Source: Protofrankia sp. CiT1
Lineage (GTDB): Bacteria > Actinomycetota > Actinomycetes > Frankiales > Frankiaceae
Assembly: GCF_917627385.1 (NCBI RefSeq)
Contig: NZ_CAKJTL010000054.1
Span: 1 to 35,736 of the forward strand
Direction of reading: 5' to 3'
Length of the DNA: 35,736 nucleotides
A program made the translations under genes and the position numbers. Shown here one piece after another: positions 13,881 through 35,736 of the stretch; positions within the stretch are counted from its first letter, which is position 1; each line of letters starts with the position of its first letter. Below the pieces are notes generated by a model. It did not search any database. It was not told where the DNA came from and saw only the letters and a list, made by a program, of their open reading frames with translations.

Positions 13881-14464
13881 GACCGCTGGGCCGGTCGCCG
13901 CTTGTGCGGGCCTGGTCGCCCGCACGGCGGGCGCTGGACCGCGGCGGGCGGTGCCCGCGGTTGCGCGCGTGTTTGTGGCCGCGTCCGTACGGGTGCCTTC
14001 GCGGGCCTGATGACAGTGGTACCGCGTTGATCGAGTTCGTTGGGCTGTCGGTTCTGTTGTTGATCCCGTTTGTCTACTTCTTCCTCAGCGTGTTCTCGGT
14101 CCAGCGGTCGGCTTTCGCGGTCACCCAGGCTGCTCGGGCGGCCGGCCGGGCCTACGCGACCGCGGACAGCGAGGATCAGGCCGTCCAGCGCGCGCGGGTG
14201 GCCGCTCGGCTGGCCTTCGCGGACCAGGGTATTGACGGCGCGCCCGAGGTGCGGTTCGCCCCGGAGGGCGCGGACTGCGGTGCGGGGGACCCAGGCGACG
14301 GAGCCGCGTCGCTGGCTCCGGGCGCGCGGTTCGTTGTGTGCGTCCGTTCGGTCGCGGCGTTGCCCGGAACCGCACGGCTGTTCACCGGATTGGCGGATAT
14401 CACGGTGAACGGGAAATTCATCGTCGTCGTGGACGCCTACCGGCGCGACCGGACAGTCGCATGA
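13877..14464 (+). CDS. TadE-like pseudopilin, second copy
   Basis: 195 residues. A long Arg/Pro-rich N-terminal extension of about 45 residues precedes 'DSGTALIEFVGLSVLLLIPFVYFFLSVFSVQRSAFAVTQAARAAGRAYATA', the TadE-type leader, membrane helix and following helix. The soluble domain contains paired Cys ('GADCGAG', 'FVVCVRS') likely to form a disulfide outside. The GTG overlaps the previous stop (GTGA), and the stop overlaps the next ATG (ATGA). The long basic leader is unusual and may be partly removed at the prepilin site. Confidence 0.85.
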   Translation: MRPLGRSPLVRAWSPARRALDRGGRCPRLRACLWPRPYGCLRGPDDSGTALIEFVGLSVLLLIPFVYFFLSVFSVQRSAFAVTQAARAAGRAYATADSEDQAVQRARVAARLAFADQGIDGAPEVRFAPEGADCGAGDPGDGAASLAPGARFVVCVRSVAALPGTARLFTGLADITVNGKFIVVVDAYRRDRTVA

Positions 14465-21508: not shown

Positions 21509-21879
21509 GGGGGTGACCGGCTTCGACTCCGGACGTCGAGGCAGGGGAAGCGGGCCGAGGATGAGCGGTTATCTCGTTAACGATCCGCTCAAAGAAATAA
21601 CTGCCAACAAGTCGCAGTCTGCTCCATCCCCTTACAGCCTCGCTGCCTAGGGGAATATAAGGAGCCGTCAGCCTGGGAGCTCCTCCGGCTCAGGGCCTGG
21701 CGTCGCTAGGAGGATCACCGTCTGACCCGGTCACGGGGTCGGATGGGACATCTCACAGTGACTGAGCCCACACTGGCATGCCTGTGTGATTGGTGGGGCT
21801 GAGAAACAAGTAGCAGGCTGCGCCCGGAGAAGTCCTGTTGCGGTGCCGGAGGACGCGGGTTCGATTCCCGCCACCTCCA
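21509..21879 (+). ncRNA. ssrA: tmRNA (ssrA), proteolysis tag ANKSQSAPSPYSLAA
   Basis: The 5' part GGGGGTGACCGGCTTCGAC and the 3' part GGTTCGATTCCCGCCACCTCC form the tRNA-like domain; 5' GGGGGTG pairs with 3' CACCTCC (one G-U). The tag reading frame runs 21603-21650: GCC resume codon through TAG, encoding ANKSQSAPSPYSLAA, with the usual hydrophobic LAA ending. The CCA end is not encoded (A-C-A-T follows), so it must be added after transcription. The downstream boundary is the junction with the integrated element, and the element has preserved a full 3' end. Confidence 0.96.
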
Positions 21880-21880
21880 C
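21857..21880. other. Probable attachment site (attL) at the ssrA 3' end
   Basis: The T-arm/acceptor part of ssrA directly abuts a leftward-facing integrase gene 46 bp away, the standard arrangement for elements that integrate into tRNA or tmRNA genes. The exact core cannot be set because the second copy (attR) is not in this window; I found no second GGTTCGATTCCCGCC downstream. Confidence 0.65.
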
Positions 21881-21925: not shown

Positions 21926-23464
21926 CTAAACACCATTGGTCGTTACTGCCCCGCCGGTTTCGCCGCTGCTGGTGCCCGCAGGGTGCCCACGCCGCACCGC
22001 ACGGGGGATCGCTGCGGCGATCATTTCAGCTGCCTGCTGCCCGGTTGACCTGAGCAAATGGGCGTACGTGTTCCCCGTCATTGACGTTGACGAGTGACCG
22101 AGGATCTTCGATACGGTCGTGATGTCGATACCTCCCCCGAGCATGATCGACGCTGACCCATGGCGCAGATCATGGAGGCGTTTGGGAGAGAGCAGCTGCT
22201 CTCCGATCTCGTCCCCTACCGCCAAAGCCACCGGCAACGGCCCAGCCAGGTGCAGCAGCGACCGCGCACCCTGCTGGGTTGCGCCGCTCACCGTCACCTC
22301 CCCGATCGGCTCACGGTCGCGGTAGAGCGTCCAGGCGCCCTGTGCCGGCCGGTAGCGCGTGCCGATGGTGAGCGTGGTCGCCCCGGACGGTGCTGACGCC
22401 CGGACGTTGCCGAGCAGGCCCACACGGCGCGCGATGCGCTGCATCTGCCTGGTCAGGTACTCCGGGGCCAAGTGCCGCCCTGACGGATGAGTGAAGATCA
22501 GTTCGCGGAGCTGGACCGGGACACCATGTTCGTCGGGCAACACTCCGTTGTCCCACCCGTCACCGATCGCGGCACGCTCGTCATCCTGGCGGAGCCGGTG
22601 CGCACCGAGAGACCCGACCGTGACCGCAGCCAGGTCGACCTTCCTCCGGCCCGACTTCGTCTTCGGTGGCCAGACGCCAAGTGCCGCCCCGGACCGGGTG
22701 ATCTGCTGACGGATCGTCAGAACTCCGGCCGCCTCATCCAGCCCGGCCCAGGTCGCCCCACACACCTCACCGCGACGCAGACCGTGAAGGGCGATCAGTT
22801 CATACGCTGCCGACAACCGGTCGCCGGCCGCCTCATCCAAGAACCGTCCCACCTCCGCTGCCTCCCACGGCTCCACCTCAGGCGCCTGATGTGACGGCAG
22901 ATCGACCCCGTCCGCAGGGTTGAACGGGATCATCCGCTGCCGTTTTGCGTCGTTCAACGCGGCCCGCAGCATCTCCAATACATCCCTCGCGGTGGCCGGG
23001 CCGACGGGCCGCCCCGGACGCTCCTGAGCGGCGATCACCGCGCGTTTCAGTGCGGCGTCAATGTGCTCGGCACGCAGACCGGACAGGGGCATTTCCCCGA
23101 GGAACGGATCTAGATGCAGGCGGATGAATTGCTCGTAGCGCGAGCGGGTGGTGGGCCGCAGCGCGTTTTTCCGACTGTGCCAGTCCCACAGATAGGCGCC
23201 GACTGTCAGCGCGCCTATGTGCTGCTGCCCGGTGCGTACCGTCGCCATGGCCTCTTCGGCTGCCTCCTCGGCCGCCTTCTTCGTGACGTAGCCGGAGCTA
23301 CTCAGCTCTGTCTTGCCGACGAGCGCGACCAGCCCCTTTGGGACCCGGAACCGGTAGTTCCATGTCCCGTGCTTGCGCTGATCCAGCTTTGGACACGTGC
23401 CCCGCGGGTATTTCCGGCCGTTCTCGTCACGGCACCCGCAGCGTTTCTCCGTTTTAATTCTCAT
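21926..23464 (-). CDS. int: Tyrosine integrase with an insertion inside the catalytic domain
   Basis: 512 residues. Probably catalyses site-specific integration at ssrA. An N-terminal zinc-like Cys cluster (C9, C11, C24) is followed by an arm-binding/SAM-like domain (about 85-180) and the catalytic domain. Catalytic set: R230 ('ALHGLRRGEVC'), Lys of 'PPKTKSGRRK' (268/270), H431-D-L-R434, H457 ('ILGHSS') and nucleophile Y467 ('GNTYAHLL'). Between 'MQRIARRVGLL' (about 351) and 'RLHDLRHG' there are roughly 75 extra, beta-rich residues (352-427) not normal for this family. Length is about 100 residues above a typical AICE integrase. The gene is last in the leftward transcript, 8 bp after the second recombinase. 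Confidence 0.92.
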   Translation of the reverse strand: MRIKTEKRCGCRDENGRKYPRGTCPKLDQRKHGTWNYRFRVPKGLVALVGKTELSSSGYVTKKAAEEAAEEAMATVRTGQQHIGALTVGAYLWDWHSRKNALRPTTRSRYEQFIRLHLDPFLGEMPLSGLRAEHIDAALKRAVIAAQERPGRPVGPATARDVLEMLRAALNDAKRQRMIPFNPADGVDLPSHQAPEVEPWEAAEVGRFLDEAAGDRLSAAYELIALHGLRRGEVCGATWAGLDEAAGVLTIRQQITRSGAALGVWPPKTKSGRRKVDLAAVTVGSLGAHRLRQDDERAAIGDGWDNGVLPDEHGVPVQLRELIFTHPSGRHLAPEYLTRQMQRIARRVGLLGNVRASAPSGATTLTIGTRYRPAQGAWTLYRDREPIGEVTVSGATQQGARSLLHLAGPLPVALAVGDEIGEQLLSPKRLHDLRHGSASIMLGGGIDITTVSKILGHSSTSMTGNTYAHLLRSTGQQAAEMIAAAIPRAVRRGHPAGTSSGETGGAVTTNGV

Positions 23465-23471
23465 GGGTCGC

Positions 23472-24473
23472 CTACAGTCCTACGCCGGTCATGGCGTTGT
23501 CGGTCCACTGATCCACGGCGCGGATGTAGCCCAGGACGACCGGGCTGGATGGCGACCAGCGGCCATGCCGGGCGATCGTGGATACGGGTGCGCCTGCCCG
23601 GTAGGCGGCTGTGGCTGCACCACTGCGCAGGCTGTGTGCGGTGTACCGGTCGGCGTTGGGCAGGTCGGCACGGATAGCCAGACGTCGAACCGCCTCGTTG
23701 ACCGCCGTGCCCGACAGCCCCGCGTCGTGGATGAACTGATGCTGATCCACTCGGCGCAGGAGCGGTCCTTCCGTGATGTCGTGCTCACTGAGCAGCCGTC
23801 GCCATGCTCGGACGAGGCGGACCGGGTCCGTGTCCGCATGTTGACCAGGCGGGATGGCCACCGTGCGGCCAGCGGCATCCTGATCGGTCTTGGACTGCCG
23901 GATCGTGATGAGGAGGCCATCCTCGGTCTCGACAACGTCATCGAGGCTGAGCGCGGCGATCTCACTACGTCTGCCCATCAGGGCGAACCCGACGACTAGG
24001 AGGACACGGTCGCGCAGACCCGACGCTGTCCCCGGGTCGCAGATCTCGATCATCCTGCGCAGGATGTCCACGGTGATCGGTGGCGCCTGTCTCGCTCCCC
24101 GGCCCGATGCCGAGCGCTCCCGGCGGGCCGTGCGCAGGATCATCTGTGCCGCCGTGGTGTCCGGTTGTCCGGCGTAACCGGCCGCGCGGTGGGCGGTGCG
24201 TATCGCGGCCATGGCCTGTTCGATGGTCGATGGCGACAGGTTGTCGTCAGCCAGCATCGTGACGTATTCGGCCAGCGATTCGGCTGTAGCGGGTAGCGGT
24301 GTCCGTCCGGTCGAGGCGCACCACTGCTCCCACTGCTCCCACTGGCGGGTGTAGGCCCGCCGGGTGTTCGCGGGGACGGAATCGGCGAGACGGGCACGGG
24401 TGCGATCAGACACCACCAAATCCTGCACCGAAATCGCCGTAGTCATACTGTCGCGTAATGCAATATTGACCAT
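23472..24473 (-). CDS. Second tyrosine recombinase, directly upstream of the integrase
   Basis: 333 residues. An N-terminal core-binding domain ('VPANTRRAYTRQWEQWEQWCASTGRTPLP', 'SPSTIEQAMAAIRTAHRAAG') precedes a complete catalytic domain: R168 ('LMGRRSEIAAL'), K195 ('RQSKTDQDA'), H280-S-L-R283, H303 ('RHGRWSPSS') and Y316 ('LGYIRA'). It is intact and clearly not a duplicate of the neighbouring integrase; the two belong to different subfamilies. It probably shares a transcript with int (8 bp gap). A role in excision, resolution of dimers or a separate inserted transposon are all possible. GGAG lies about 5 bases before the ATG at 24473. Confidence 0.92.
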   Translation of the reverse strand: MVNIALRDSMTTAISVQDLVVSDRTRARLADSVPANTRRAYTRQWEQWEQWCASTGRTPLPATAESLAEYVTMLADDNLSPSTIEQAMAAIRTAHRAAGYAGQPDTTAAQMILRTARRERSASGRGARQAPPITVDILRRMIEICDPGTASGLRDRVLLVVGFALMGRRSEIAALSLDDVVETEDGLLITIRQSKTDQDAAGRTVAIPPGQHADTDPVRLVRAWRRLLSEHDITEGPLLRRVDQHQFIHDAGLSGTAVNEAVRRLAIRADLPNADRYTAHSLRSGAATAAYRAGAPVSTIARHGRWSPSSPVVLGYIRAVDQWTDNAMTGVGL

Positions 24474-25372: not shown

Positions 25373-25579
25373 TCACGACGCCCGTCCCGCGGGTCTGCTG
25401 CGCTGTGAGGGGTGACGACGCTCCCGGGCACGACGGGCGCCGGCCGCGCGCAACTCTGCCCGCCCCTCGTCTCGGCACATCTGCGAGCACCAGGGGAGCA
25501 CCCAGCGGTCTTGCGCTGCCCAGAGGAGCACACGGGGTACCAGGGCGTGGCAACGGCGGCAGTGCAAGGCGGTGGTCAC
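25373..25579 (-). CDS. Small Cys-rich (zinc-finger-like) protein
   Basis: 68 residues. 'LHCRRCHALVP' and 'WCSQMCRDEG' give two CxxC/CxxxC pairs about 20 residues apart, a likely zinc site, followed by a very basic Arg-rich tail. Its GTG overlaps the stop of the upstream gene (GTGA at 25576-25579), which fixes the start. One of several Cys-rich miniproteins in this element. The basic tail would suit nucleic-acid binding (inference). Confidence 0.65.
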   Translation of the reverse strand: MTTALHCRRCHALVPRVLLWAAQDRWVLPWCSQMCRDEGRAELRAAGARRARERRHPSQRSRPAGRAS

Positions 25580-25800
25580 GGGAGGATCTCCGCGTCGTCC
25601 TCCCTCATCGCCCACGCCGTGACAGTGCCGGCATCCGCATAGGTCGGGGACCGTCCGGCCTGGACGGCGTCCCGCACACGGAGCAGGGCCTCGAAGACGG
25701 CCCGTCCGGGGACACGCATCACGAGGGTCTCGCCCGAGGGAAGCGCCGCGGTGACGAAGCTCCCCTCGGCGGGCAGATGGTCGGGCAGTTTAGTGATCAC
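25576..25800 (-). CDS. Small hypothetical protein, first gene after the iteron array
   Basis: 74 residues, beginning 'MITKLPDHLPAEGSFVTAALPSGETLVMRVPGRAVFEALLRVRDAVQAG'. Acidic, one beta-rich half and one helical half, no motif I recognise. AAGGAG lies 5-6 bases before the GTG at 25800, a strong site. Translationally coupled to the Cys-rich gene downstream. It lies between the repeat array and the recombinases, where AICEs often carry control genes. Confidence 0.65.
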   Translation of the reverse strand: MITKLPDHLPAEGSFVTAALPSGETLVMRVPGRAVFEALLRVRDAVQAGRSPTYADAGTVTAWAMREDDAEILP

Positions 25801-25860: not shown

Positions 25861-26055
25861 AGGGGTGTCACGCAGGGGTGTCACGTTGGAGTGTGTGACA
25901 CCCCTCAGAGTGGGTCGGACCGCGCATGGTGTCACGATCTGTAGATACATTGGCGTTGGTAGCGGCCAAATCATCGACAGTGAGTGACATATTCTTGGAT
26001 CGAGCGCGAGCGCGCGACACCAGGGGTGTCGTGACACCCCTGCCGTGACACCCCT
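25861..26055. repeat. Dyad-symmetric array of 11-bp iterons (AGGGGTGTCAC), candidate replication origin
   Basis: Exact copies at 25861-25871 and 25874-25884 (forward), 25895-25905, 26031-26041 and 26045-26055 (inverted). A forward copy at 26022-26030 merges with the next into the near-perfect palindrome AGGGGTGTCGTGACACCCCT (26022-26041). A partial copy lies at 25928-25935. The order is ++- then +--, so the whole array reads the same on both strands. It fills the noncoding stretch 25801-26138 next to the 3' end of the replication gene. Iteron binding by the element's replication protein is the favoured reading; repressor operators are the alternative. Confidence 0.75.
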
Positions 26056-29380: not shown

Positions 29381-29719
29381 TTATCCGGGTAGGCGGTTGG
29401 CGAGGTCGGCGAGAACATCGCCATGGCACTCCAGGGGCGCGCAGTGACACCCCAGCGCCTTGCCGCGCAGGCCGGGCAGCTGGCGAAGCAGGTCTGGACG
29501 GGTCTCCAGGTACGCCCGGTACCGAGCGACCACATCGGCACGCTCGGCATCGGTGCCACCGGCGGGCAGCCGGTAGGGGTTACCCCACCGGGACGGCCGT
29601 CCGATCCGGACGAGTAGCCCCGCGTCCGCCAGTACGCGCAGCTCCGGCGGGTACGGGACGCCACGGGCGGGCAGGCGGACCACCACCGTGTCGCCCGTGG
29701 CGAGCCGGGCGGCGACATC
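29381..29719 (-). CDS. DUF4326-family protein, 5' end lost or uncertain
   Basis: About 112 residues. The DUF4326 core is clear: 'VRIGRPSRWGNPYRLP', 'RYRAYLETRPDLLRQLPGLRGKALGCHCAPLECHGDVLADLANRLPG', with the conserved CxC-x4-CHG cluster. The family is common on phages and plasmids; its biochemical role is not settled to my knowledge. No ATG or GTG with a ribosome binding site precedes the conserved part. GTG 29686 is the only nearby in-frame start and would cut into the domain's lead-in. The conserved sequence ends at about 29719, exactly where an opposite-strand gene remnant begins, so the true start was probably removed by a rearrangement. Confidence 0.65.
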   Translation of the reverse strand, partial: DVAARLATGDTVVVRLPARGVPYPPELRVLADAGLLVRIGRPSRWGNPYRLPAGGTDAERADVVARYRAYLETRPDLLRQLPGLRGKALGCHCAPLECHGDVLADLANRLPG

Positions 29720-34387: not shown

Positions 34388-34562
34388 AGGGAGGCTGCAA
34401 ACGGGCTCTGACGAGGGCATCCACACGGCGTGGCCGGGTGCCTCCCAACCTCCCTGGGATCATCGTTTTGCCTGTACTGCAAAGGTTTTCGCGTGGGAGC
34501 TGGCGTGGGAGGCCGGCTGGGAAAACTCCCAGCCTCCCTGACGCCTCCCTACTCGCCTCCCT
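34388..34562. repeat. Cluster of GCCTCCCT octamers with a central dyad, candidate conjugal transfer site (clt/TRS)
   Basis: Exact GCCTCCCT at 34532-34539, 34543-34550 and 34555-34562, and its exact inverse AGGGAGGC at 34388-34395. One-mismatch copies lie at 34440 and 34448, and an inverted one at 34507. A perfect GGCTGGGA-AAAC-TCCCAGCC hairpin (34515-34534) sits in the middle. The cluster occupies the 226-bp gap between the translocase and the next gene, with the last copies inside the translocase 3' end. Streptomyces TraB proteins bind short repeated 8-bp sequences of this kind close to their gene. Binding here is inference. Confidence 0.6.
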
Positions 34563-35736
34563 CCGATTTTTCGTCACGTACCGTGATGGCCGCGCGGATG
34601 TCGTCGGCACGGACGTACATCACCGACGACTTGTAGGTGTCCGACCCGTGCTCCGTCAGAGCGGACCGGATCTTCTCTGTGGACCAGTCGCCGTAGACCC
34701 GCTCGTCCAGGTCGATGAGCTTGCCGAGCATGACCGCGGTCCGCATCCGCTCGGCCGCGCCCAGGACGGTGAGCATGTCGGCCAGCGGGTCACGGTCGGG
34801 CTCCTGCTCGGCAACCGCGGCGTTGGTCGACGTGCCGGCCCGTCGGGATCGGGCAACATCGGCCAACATCGCCGCGTCATCGTCATTGATGTAGTGGGTC
34901 CGCAACGTCAGGCTGGACGCACCCGGGGGCAGTGGAACCCCGTCCCCGGCCACGACGACCGTGCCCTTATCGATACCCAACCGGAGACGATGCGGCGCCG
35001 CGCCACCGTTGAACGCCTTGTCTCCCAACGCCATTTTCGCCTGCGCGGGGGTTCCCAGGACCAACGCGACCCGGATGTGTGCACCCTCGCGAATCCGTTT
35101 CGGCAGGTTCTGGTCGGTCGGGTCCTGTGTGCCCTGGTGCAGCAGAACGTCCACCGCGCGGCCCTGGTCGTGAATCCGTTTCGCGGCCATGAAATAGCGA
35201 CTCTTCGCTTTCGTCCCGCCATACGGGTTCTTGTCGTCGTCCTGCGCGGTGCAGCCGAACGCGACCTGTGCCTCATCCACGATGCAGATCAGCGGCTGGA
35301 ATTTTCCACCGGACCGCTTCACCTCAATCCGCCGGTTCATCTCGGCGACGGCTTCTTCCAGAATCTCGGTAGCCGCGATGACGTGCTCGTCCGTGGGTCC
35401 CTGGATGAGCCGGGTGGCGATGCCCTCGAACATCGCCCAGTCGCCAACACCCTTGAGGTCAGCGATCCAGAACTCGACGGTGGGGTCGAGCGCCAGCCAC
35501 AGCTCCAATGCCCGCAACGCGGCCGTTTTCCCTTGATTGGAGACACCGGTGATGAGCAGGTGCCGCTGGTAGAGGCTCAATCCCGTCGCGTCCCCGCGGA
35601 GATCCTGTCCCCAGGGTGCCCGGCCCGACCGGTAGGACGCGGTCATGTCCGGGTCTGCGACCAGCGGGGACGGTCCGATCGGCTCATCCAACGCCCCGGA
35701 GTTCGCGGCCCACAGCCGGACGGTGCGGGCTTGGGC
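34549..35736 (-). CDS. FtsK/SpoIIIE-type conjugative DNA translocase (TraB/TraSA-like), 5' end outside window
   Basis: Frame open to the window edge; at least 395 residues are present. The motor domain contains 'WGQDLRGDATGLSLYQRHLLITGVSNQGKTAALRALELWLALDPTVEFWIADLKG' (Walker A GVSNQGKTA), Walker B 'LICIVDEAQVAF', and 'LLHQGTQDPTDQNLPKRIREG', the arrangement of actinomycete Tra proteins. The C-terminal 70 residues ('DERVYGDWSTEKIRSALTEHGSD') look like the winged helix that reads transfer-site repeats. These proteins pump double-stranded DNA between mycelia as hexamers. Starts such as TTG 35691 are internal, since homology-like sequence continues upstream. Confidence 0.9.
   Translation of the reverse strand, partial: AQARTVRLWAANSGALDEPIGPSPLVADPDMTASYRSGRAPWGQDLRGDATGLSLYQRHLLITGVSNQGKTAALRALELWLALDPTVEFWIADLKGVGDWAMFEGIATRLIQGPTDEHVIAATEILEEAVAEMNRRIEVKRSGGKFQPLICIVDEAQVAFGCTAQDDDKNPYGGTKAKSRYFMAAKRIHDQGRAVDVLLHQGTQDPTDQNLPKRIREGAHIRVALVLGTPAQAKMALGDKAFNGGAAPHRLRLGIDKGTVVVAGDGVPLPPGASSLTLRTHYINDDDAAMLADVARSRRAGTSTNAAVAEQEPDRDPLADMLTVLGAAERMRTAVMLGKLIDLDERVYGDWSTEKIRSALTEHGSDTYKSSVMYVRADDIRAAITVRDEKSEGGE

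Follow-up and report, generated by a model that had tools for sequence, protein, structure and literature searches.

A 195-bp array of 11-bp iterons, lying directly 3' of the rep gene of a mobile element in Protofrankia sp. CiT1, is very probably the replication origin of that element, judging from its recurrence beside homologous genes. The window (the whole stretch of DNA analysed, 35,736 nucleotides) holds chromosomal genes as far as the tmRNA gene, at whose 3' end an AICE-like element begins (Table 1). The assembly does not contain the middle of this element in one piece, and its other end lies on a second contig, C104, of the same genome (G000).

Table 1 Features of the iteron array and of the element that carries it (window coordinates).
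Feature	Position	Strand	Basis or remark
Attachment site = 25-bp tmRNA 3' end	21856..21880	+	repeated at G000:C104:12187-12211 (other end)
Tyrosine integrase	21926..23464	-	family search
74-aa ORF, far side of array, no family	25576..25800	-	ORF + family search
Iteron, exact AGGGGTGTCAC	25861..25871	+	sequence
Iteron, exact AGGGGTGTCAC	25874..25884	+	sequence
Iteron, exact AGGGGTGTCAC	25895..25905	-	sequence
Central spacer, 116 bp	25906..26021	.	AT 0.43 vs 0.32 for window
Partial copy GGTGTCACG	25928..25936	+	overlaps CAGATCG on - strand
Iteron, 9/11 match to AGGGGTGTCAC	26022..26032	+	overlaps next iteron
Iteron, exact AGGGGTGTCAC	26031..26041	-	sequence
Iteron, exact AGGGGTGTCAC	26045..26055	-	sequence
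rep, 599 aa	26139..27938	-	domain searches + predicted model
FtsK/SpoIIIE-type translocase (Tra-like)	34549..35691	-	family search

The array extends from 84 to 278 bp 3' of the rep stop codon and consists of five exact copies of AGGGGTGTCAC plus one copy matching at 9 of 11 positions, in the sign order ++-|+--. Where the imperfect copy overlaps the adjoining minus-strand iteron, the two form a 20-bp palindrome, AGGGGTGTC-GT-GACACCCCT. The original prediction had described these copies and their order, and locating each copy, shuffling the window and counting across the genome all bear it out. Within 200 bp there are six copies of the best 9-mer, AGGGGTGTC, whereas no 9-mer exceeds three in 100 whole-window shuffles; all four occurrences of the 12-mer AGGGGTGTCACG in the 5.02-Mb genome fall inside the array, and its reversed control has none in the same genome. 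Since a loose count of AGGGGTGTCAC allowing two mismatches shows no excess over the whole window (16 vs 14.3 by chance), the signal resides in the clustering of the copies. A chance origin of the array is excluded, and it is a real, functionally constrained feature. The self-symmetry also claimed for it holds for the sign order and fails for the start-to-start distances, which are 13 and 21 bp in the left cluster and 9 and 14 bp in the right one. A lone iteron-like site with one mismatch (TGGGGTGTCAC, 29444-29454) lies in the element away from the array and may be due to chance.

The same genome carries a paralogous array on contig C104 (G000:C104:12471-12790, locus L112), an orphan that is accompanied by the broken 3' end of a rep gene and adjoins the second copy of the tmRNA-end attachment site. 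The two array regions are 68% identical overall and all five exact copies on C104 read GGGGTGTAC, a joint change that is expected for sites read by one protein. Their spacers share the conserved stretch TCACTCACTGTCGAT...ATCTACAGATYGTGACAC (rep orientation). The partial copy GGTGTCACG, which had been counted with the iterons, is indeed present in the window but, because the corresponding stretch on C104 stays TGTGACAC when the iterons there have changed, it is probably a conserved spacer element and not an iteron. At about 13900-14453, L112 also contains CRISPR-like repeats (GTTTCAATCCCTCCAGGGATGATCAGTGA on one strand), near which are ORFs resembling a RelE/Phd-type toxin-antitoxin pair.

The adjacent gene encodes a protein predicted to consist of a DnaB N-terminal domain (NTD), an MCM-like AAA+ motor (DUF3987 family) and, at the C terminus, a winged helix. 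The sole Pfam match in the window Rep is the DnaB NTD (PF00772, E 1.8e-7). In the predicted model (mean pLDDT 88.6), residues 1-162 superpose on the DnaB NTD of M. tuberculosis (2r5u_D; Z 14.7, 2.1 Å), and the predicted fold of residues 174-500 resembles the MCM AAA+ tier (Z about 15.6, rmsd 4.1-4.6 Å over about 266-270 residues). The winged helix takes up the last 60 residues of the model (about 540-599), and the C terminus of the family profile matches the RPA32 and MCM winged helices. Although Pfam sees the DnaB NTD alone in the window Rep, the motor can be assigned to DUF3987 because this domain is found in homologues (29 of 42 family members); DUF927 and D5/Primase_Cterm have no Pfam match among the same 42. 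Past the N-terminal region, neither Pfam nor NCBIfam matches a RecA-type DnaB_C motor (PF03796) in the window Rep, and there is no Pfam match to the MCM sequence family (PF00493), the DnaB NTD standing where the MCM N-tier would be. The earlier description of the protein as DnaB-like is thus apt for residues 1-162 and not for the motor, which is predicted to be MCM-like AAA+ instead of RecA-type. Phage relatives of Rep carry the annotation primase/polymerase.

Homologues of Rep were collected from related genomes, GTDB contigs, IMG/VR, phages and plasmids, giving 71 in total and 58 below 80% identity (AICEs, prophages, phages and a plasmid). The genome-scan profile used six closer Reps, as 13 distant ones gave no block conserved enough; one weak DNA match (L114, G010) was inspected and has no array. 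By script, a two-cluster array directly 3' of rep, its start about 0-100 bp from the stop codon, was found in 32 of the 58 non-redundant homologues. Exact 8-mer counting overlooks degenerate arrays, of which four more (L035, L082, L086, L091) were recognised by eye alone. The rep 3' region is the strictly best repeat cluster of the entire locus in 30 of 56 loci. Arrays are present in phages of Gordonia (BetterKatz, Hibiscus, TinyDot) and Tsukamurella (TPA4), in Dulem virus 32, in prophage prophiGD05-1, in a Nonomuraea plasmid and in loci of Frankia, Micromonospora, Nocardioides and Rhodococcus. Each element has its own motif (GGGGTGGAC, TGGGGTAC, CGTGGCCA, TTTGCTGG, AGCGATGA and others) and keeps the layout, and the exact order ++-|+-- recurs with differing motifs in the window, L046, L062, L069, L092 and L097. 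With + set by G-richness alone, the outermost left site is + in 26 of the 32 and the outermost right site - in 29, and in most scripted arrays the G-rich strands point towards the centre on either side. Spacers (median 117 bp) exceed their locus in AT content in 31 of 32 arrays, the window spacer being just moderately AT-rich. Five loci show no complete array by these tests: Mycobacterium phage Catdawg (L052), a Tsukamurella plasmid (L056), L065, L079 (cut off) and L094. At the level of sequence comparison, a mirror-image array at the rep 3' end is an unusually clear family-wide rule. The same layout, at the same end of rep, with element-specific motifs and in dozens of homologues, lends strong support to the original prediction that the window array is a replication origin.

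In about 17 mycobacterial prophage-like and related Reps, a compact mirror-symmetric array is embedded in the gene itself, at the 3' end of the coding sequence, where 6-mers were required to find it. All six half-sites are present in about ten cases, nearly always as -+-|+-+ and with a mirror spacing such as 8-11-31-11-8 or 10-9-33-9-10; the geometry is constant and the motifs vary (GTGGAC, GTGACC, CTGAAC, TGACCA and others). Loci with an array within the rep 3' codons, fixed mirror spacing and a changing motif include L040, L041, L042, L072, L073, L075, L081, L083, L087 and L100. The element CAG[GT]TCA is frequent at the centre of in-gene arrays (12 of 26 3'-coding ends vs 1.8 expected), and CAGGTCA occurs in 6 of 32 spacers of relatives vs 0.24 expected. 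CAGGTCA or CAGTTCA, which might conceivably be a priming or melting site, is seen at the putative origin centre in the spacers of L040, L042, L047, L053, L055, L063, L069, L073, L092 and others. Exact CAGGTCA is absent from the window spacer and, since only CAGATCG is present there, the enrichment is no evidence for the window array.

The window locus has sequence features of an iteron-type theta origin, namely clustered specific repeats, an adjacent putative initiator gene and an AT-richer region (0.43 vs 0.32). We infer that the C-terminal winged helix of Rep, encoded just upstream, would bind the inward-facing iterons of each cluster and that one ring of this MCM-like AAA+ helicase would be seeded per cluster; the AT-richer spacer between the clusters would be melted and the two facing rings would depart in opposite directions, giving two forks. 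Bidirectional loading, which had been raised as a possibility, would fit the mirror layout. We hold this reading in full, a theta-type origin of an AICE-like element with Rep winged helices on the iterons, two rings, a melted spacer and opposite forks, with high confidence.

The location of the array between rep and the 74-aa ORF, and the frequent binding of initiators to the regions that control them, could instead suggest an operator or autoregulatory site through which Rep or a repressor controls rep or the small far-side gene, without any origin function. However, the array lies 3' of rep, away from the rep promoter, and a scan for sigma-70-like promoters (that one promoter type) and terminators around it found nothing. 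Moreover, the in-gene version falls within coding sequence, and the sequences beyond the array vary between relatives, making an operator improbable. It is more improbable still that the array is a clt, a cis-acting transfer locus read by the FtsK-like Tra of the element: such a protein is encoded and binding to a clt is described for the Tra proteins of AICEs (PMC3218068), but arrays follow rep and not tra, which in the window is >8 kb away, their motifs track the Rep winged helix, and the tailed phages BetterKatz, TPA4, Hibiscus and TinyDot have the same kind of array beside a primase-helicase gene.

That one layout recurs where the same gene ends, with a motif of its own in each element, suggests that the array is read by the rep product. 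Motif distance correlates with winged-helix distance, if modestly and with phylogeny ignored (Mantel r=0.244, p=0.0005), and shows no clear correlation with ATPase distance in the same kind of test, also ignoring phylogeny (r=0.123, p=0.10). The motifs of the two elements of Frankia torreyi CpI1 (G018), L035/L061 and L039/L067, are unrelated, an observation that speaks against reading by a host factor. A host protein, either DnaA or a nucleoid protein, as the primary binder of the iterons, with Rep arriving secondarily, is very unlikely, since motifs differ within one genome (G018 L035 vs L039, G000 C54 vs C104) and many of them (AGGGGTGTCAC, TTTGCTGG, AGCGATGA, GACGCAA) are no DnaA boxes, even if some relatives' motifs (TGTGGACA) resemble actinobacterial DnaA boxes.

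If Rep does act at the array as an origin-reading helicase, the DnaB NTD of the window Rep would probably recruit the host primase DnaG, related Reps carrying or neighbouring a primase-polymerase of their own. This proposal comes from the distribution of the two modules: Rep has a DnaB NTD in four Frankiaceae elements, the window's included, and Prim-Pol (PF09250) was found neither in the whole genome of the window nor on the contigs that hold the remaining three elements, whereas a relative without the DnaB domain (G032) has a Prim-Pol beside rep. A DnaB domain in place of Prim-Pol is no general rule, as the PF09250 search was also blank for several mycobacterial genomes with the in-gene array. 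Considered jointly, the observations give an even balance for and against a broader reading, in which DUF3987 proteins of actinobacterial mobile elements would be replicative helicases that read their origin and load themselves, as bacterial counterparts to the double hexamer of MCM; their origin would be a mirror array of iterons at the 3' end of their own gene (in one lineage, within its codons), and the N-terminal module, DnaB domain or primase-polymerase, would set whose primase serves. A testable origin is thereby predicted for a widespread helicase family whose role has so far been predicted alone, and with it for a large number of actinobacterial phages, prophages and AICEs. The dozens of natural motif/winged-helix pairs could be used in specificity tests, and such origins might become shuttle-vector parts for genera that are hard to transform.

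By analogy, the best reading is a Rep/ori logic like that of SaPI and pWTY27, in a helicase family different from that of SaPI. According to PMC7581432, SaPI Rep/SaPI ori and SCCmec Cch2 of Staphylococcus have a short-iteron origin directly downstream of the initiator-helicase gene; the SaPI ori is read by the helicase C-terminal domain and thought to bind two hexamers, and each Rep binds its cognate origin. The window array is likewise directly downstream of a predicted helicase gene, whose product has a predicted C-terminal winged helix. The SaPI and SCCmec helicases of that account are DUF927 or D5/Primase_Cterm proteins, in contrast to the DUF3987 family here, with an MCM-like motor and a DnaB NTD, in actinobacteria; relative to the same account, the mirror layout ++-|+-- and the in-gene version are found here. 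Next to its primase-polymerase gene and second rep gene, the Streptomyces plasmid pWTY27 (GU226194) has a 300-bp iteron region in which the repeat GTGGGAAC/TTCCCAC occurs in both orientations; its RepA (522 aa) binds the adjacent iterons in gel shifts and footprints, and replication is bidirectional (PMC3583192). At the level of locus layout, an iteron region in two orientations adjoining rep is common to both. Unlike pWTY27, the window element and its whole genome have no PrimPol, and Streptomyces plasmids gave no clear match to the window Rep.

For DUF3987 helicases, we found no earlier description of such an origin in an open-access collection with few of the subscription journals. In the accessible part of their paper, Kazlauskas et al. 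2018 propose a helicase function from sequence, suggest the winged helix that comes after the DUF3987 ATPase as a possible origin reader, and describe no origin (PMC5862659). Compared with the PrimPol-DUF3987 proteins covered there, the window Rep has DnaB_N where they have the primase.

The element itself has the parts by which AICEs are recognised, namely a tyrosine integrase, a Rep, an FtsK-like Tra and site-specific attachment, here at tmRNA. The survey of AICEs distinguishes the replication modules RepSA, RepAM and RepPP (SCO4618-like), gives RepSA and RepAM as (predicted) rolling-circle initiators and leaves iterons unmentioned (PMC3218068). The window Rep, in contrast, has no Pfam match to DUF3631 (PF12307), the domain of RepAM, or to any rolling-circle family. 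Elsewhere in the element, a second tyrosine recombinase gene adjoins that of the integrase (23472-24473), and the segment 30052-32129 contains an intact DUF5131 gene and a neighbouring ORF that seems to hold the start of a second, cut-off copy.
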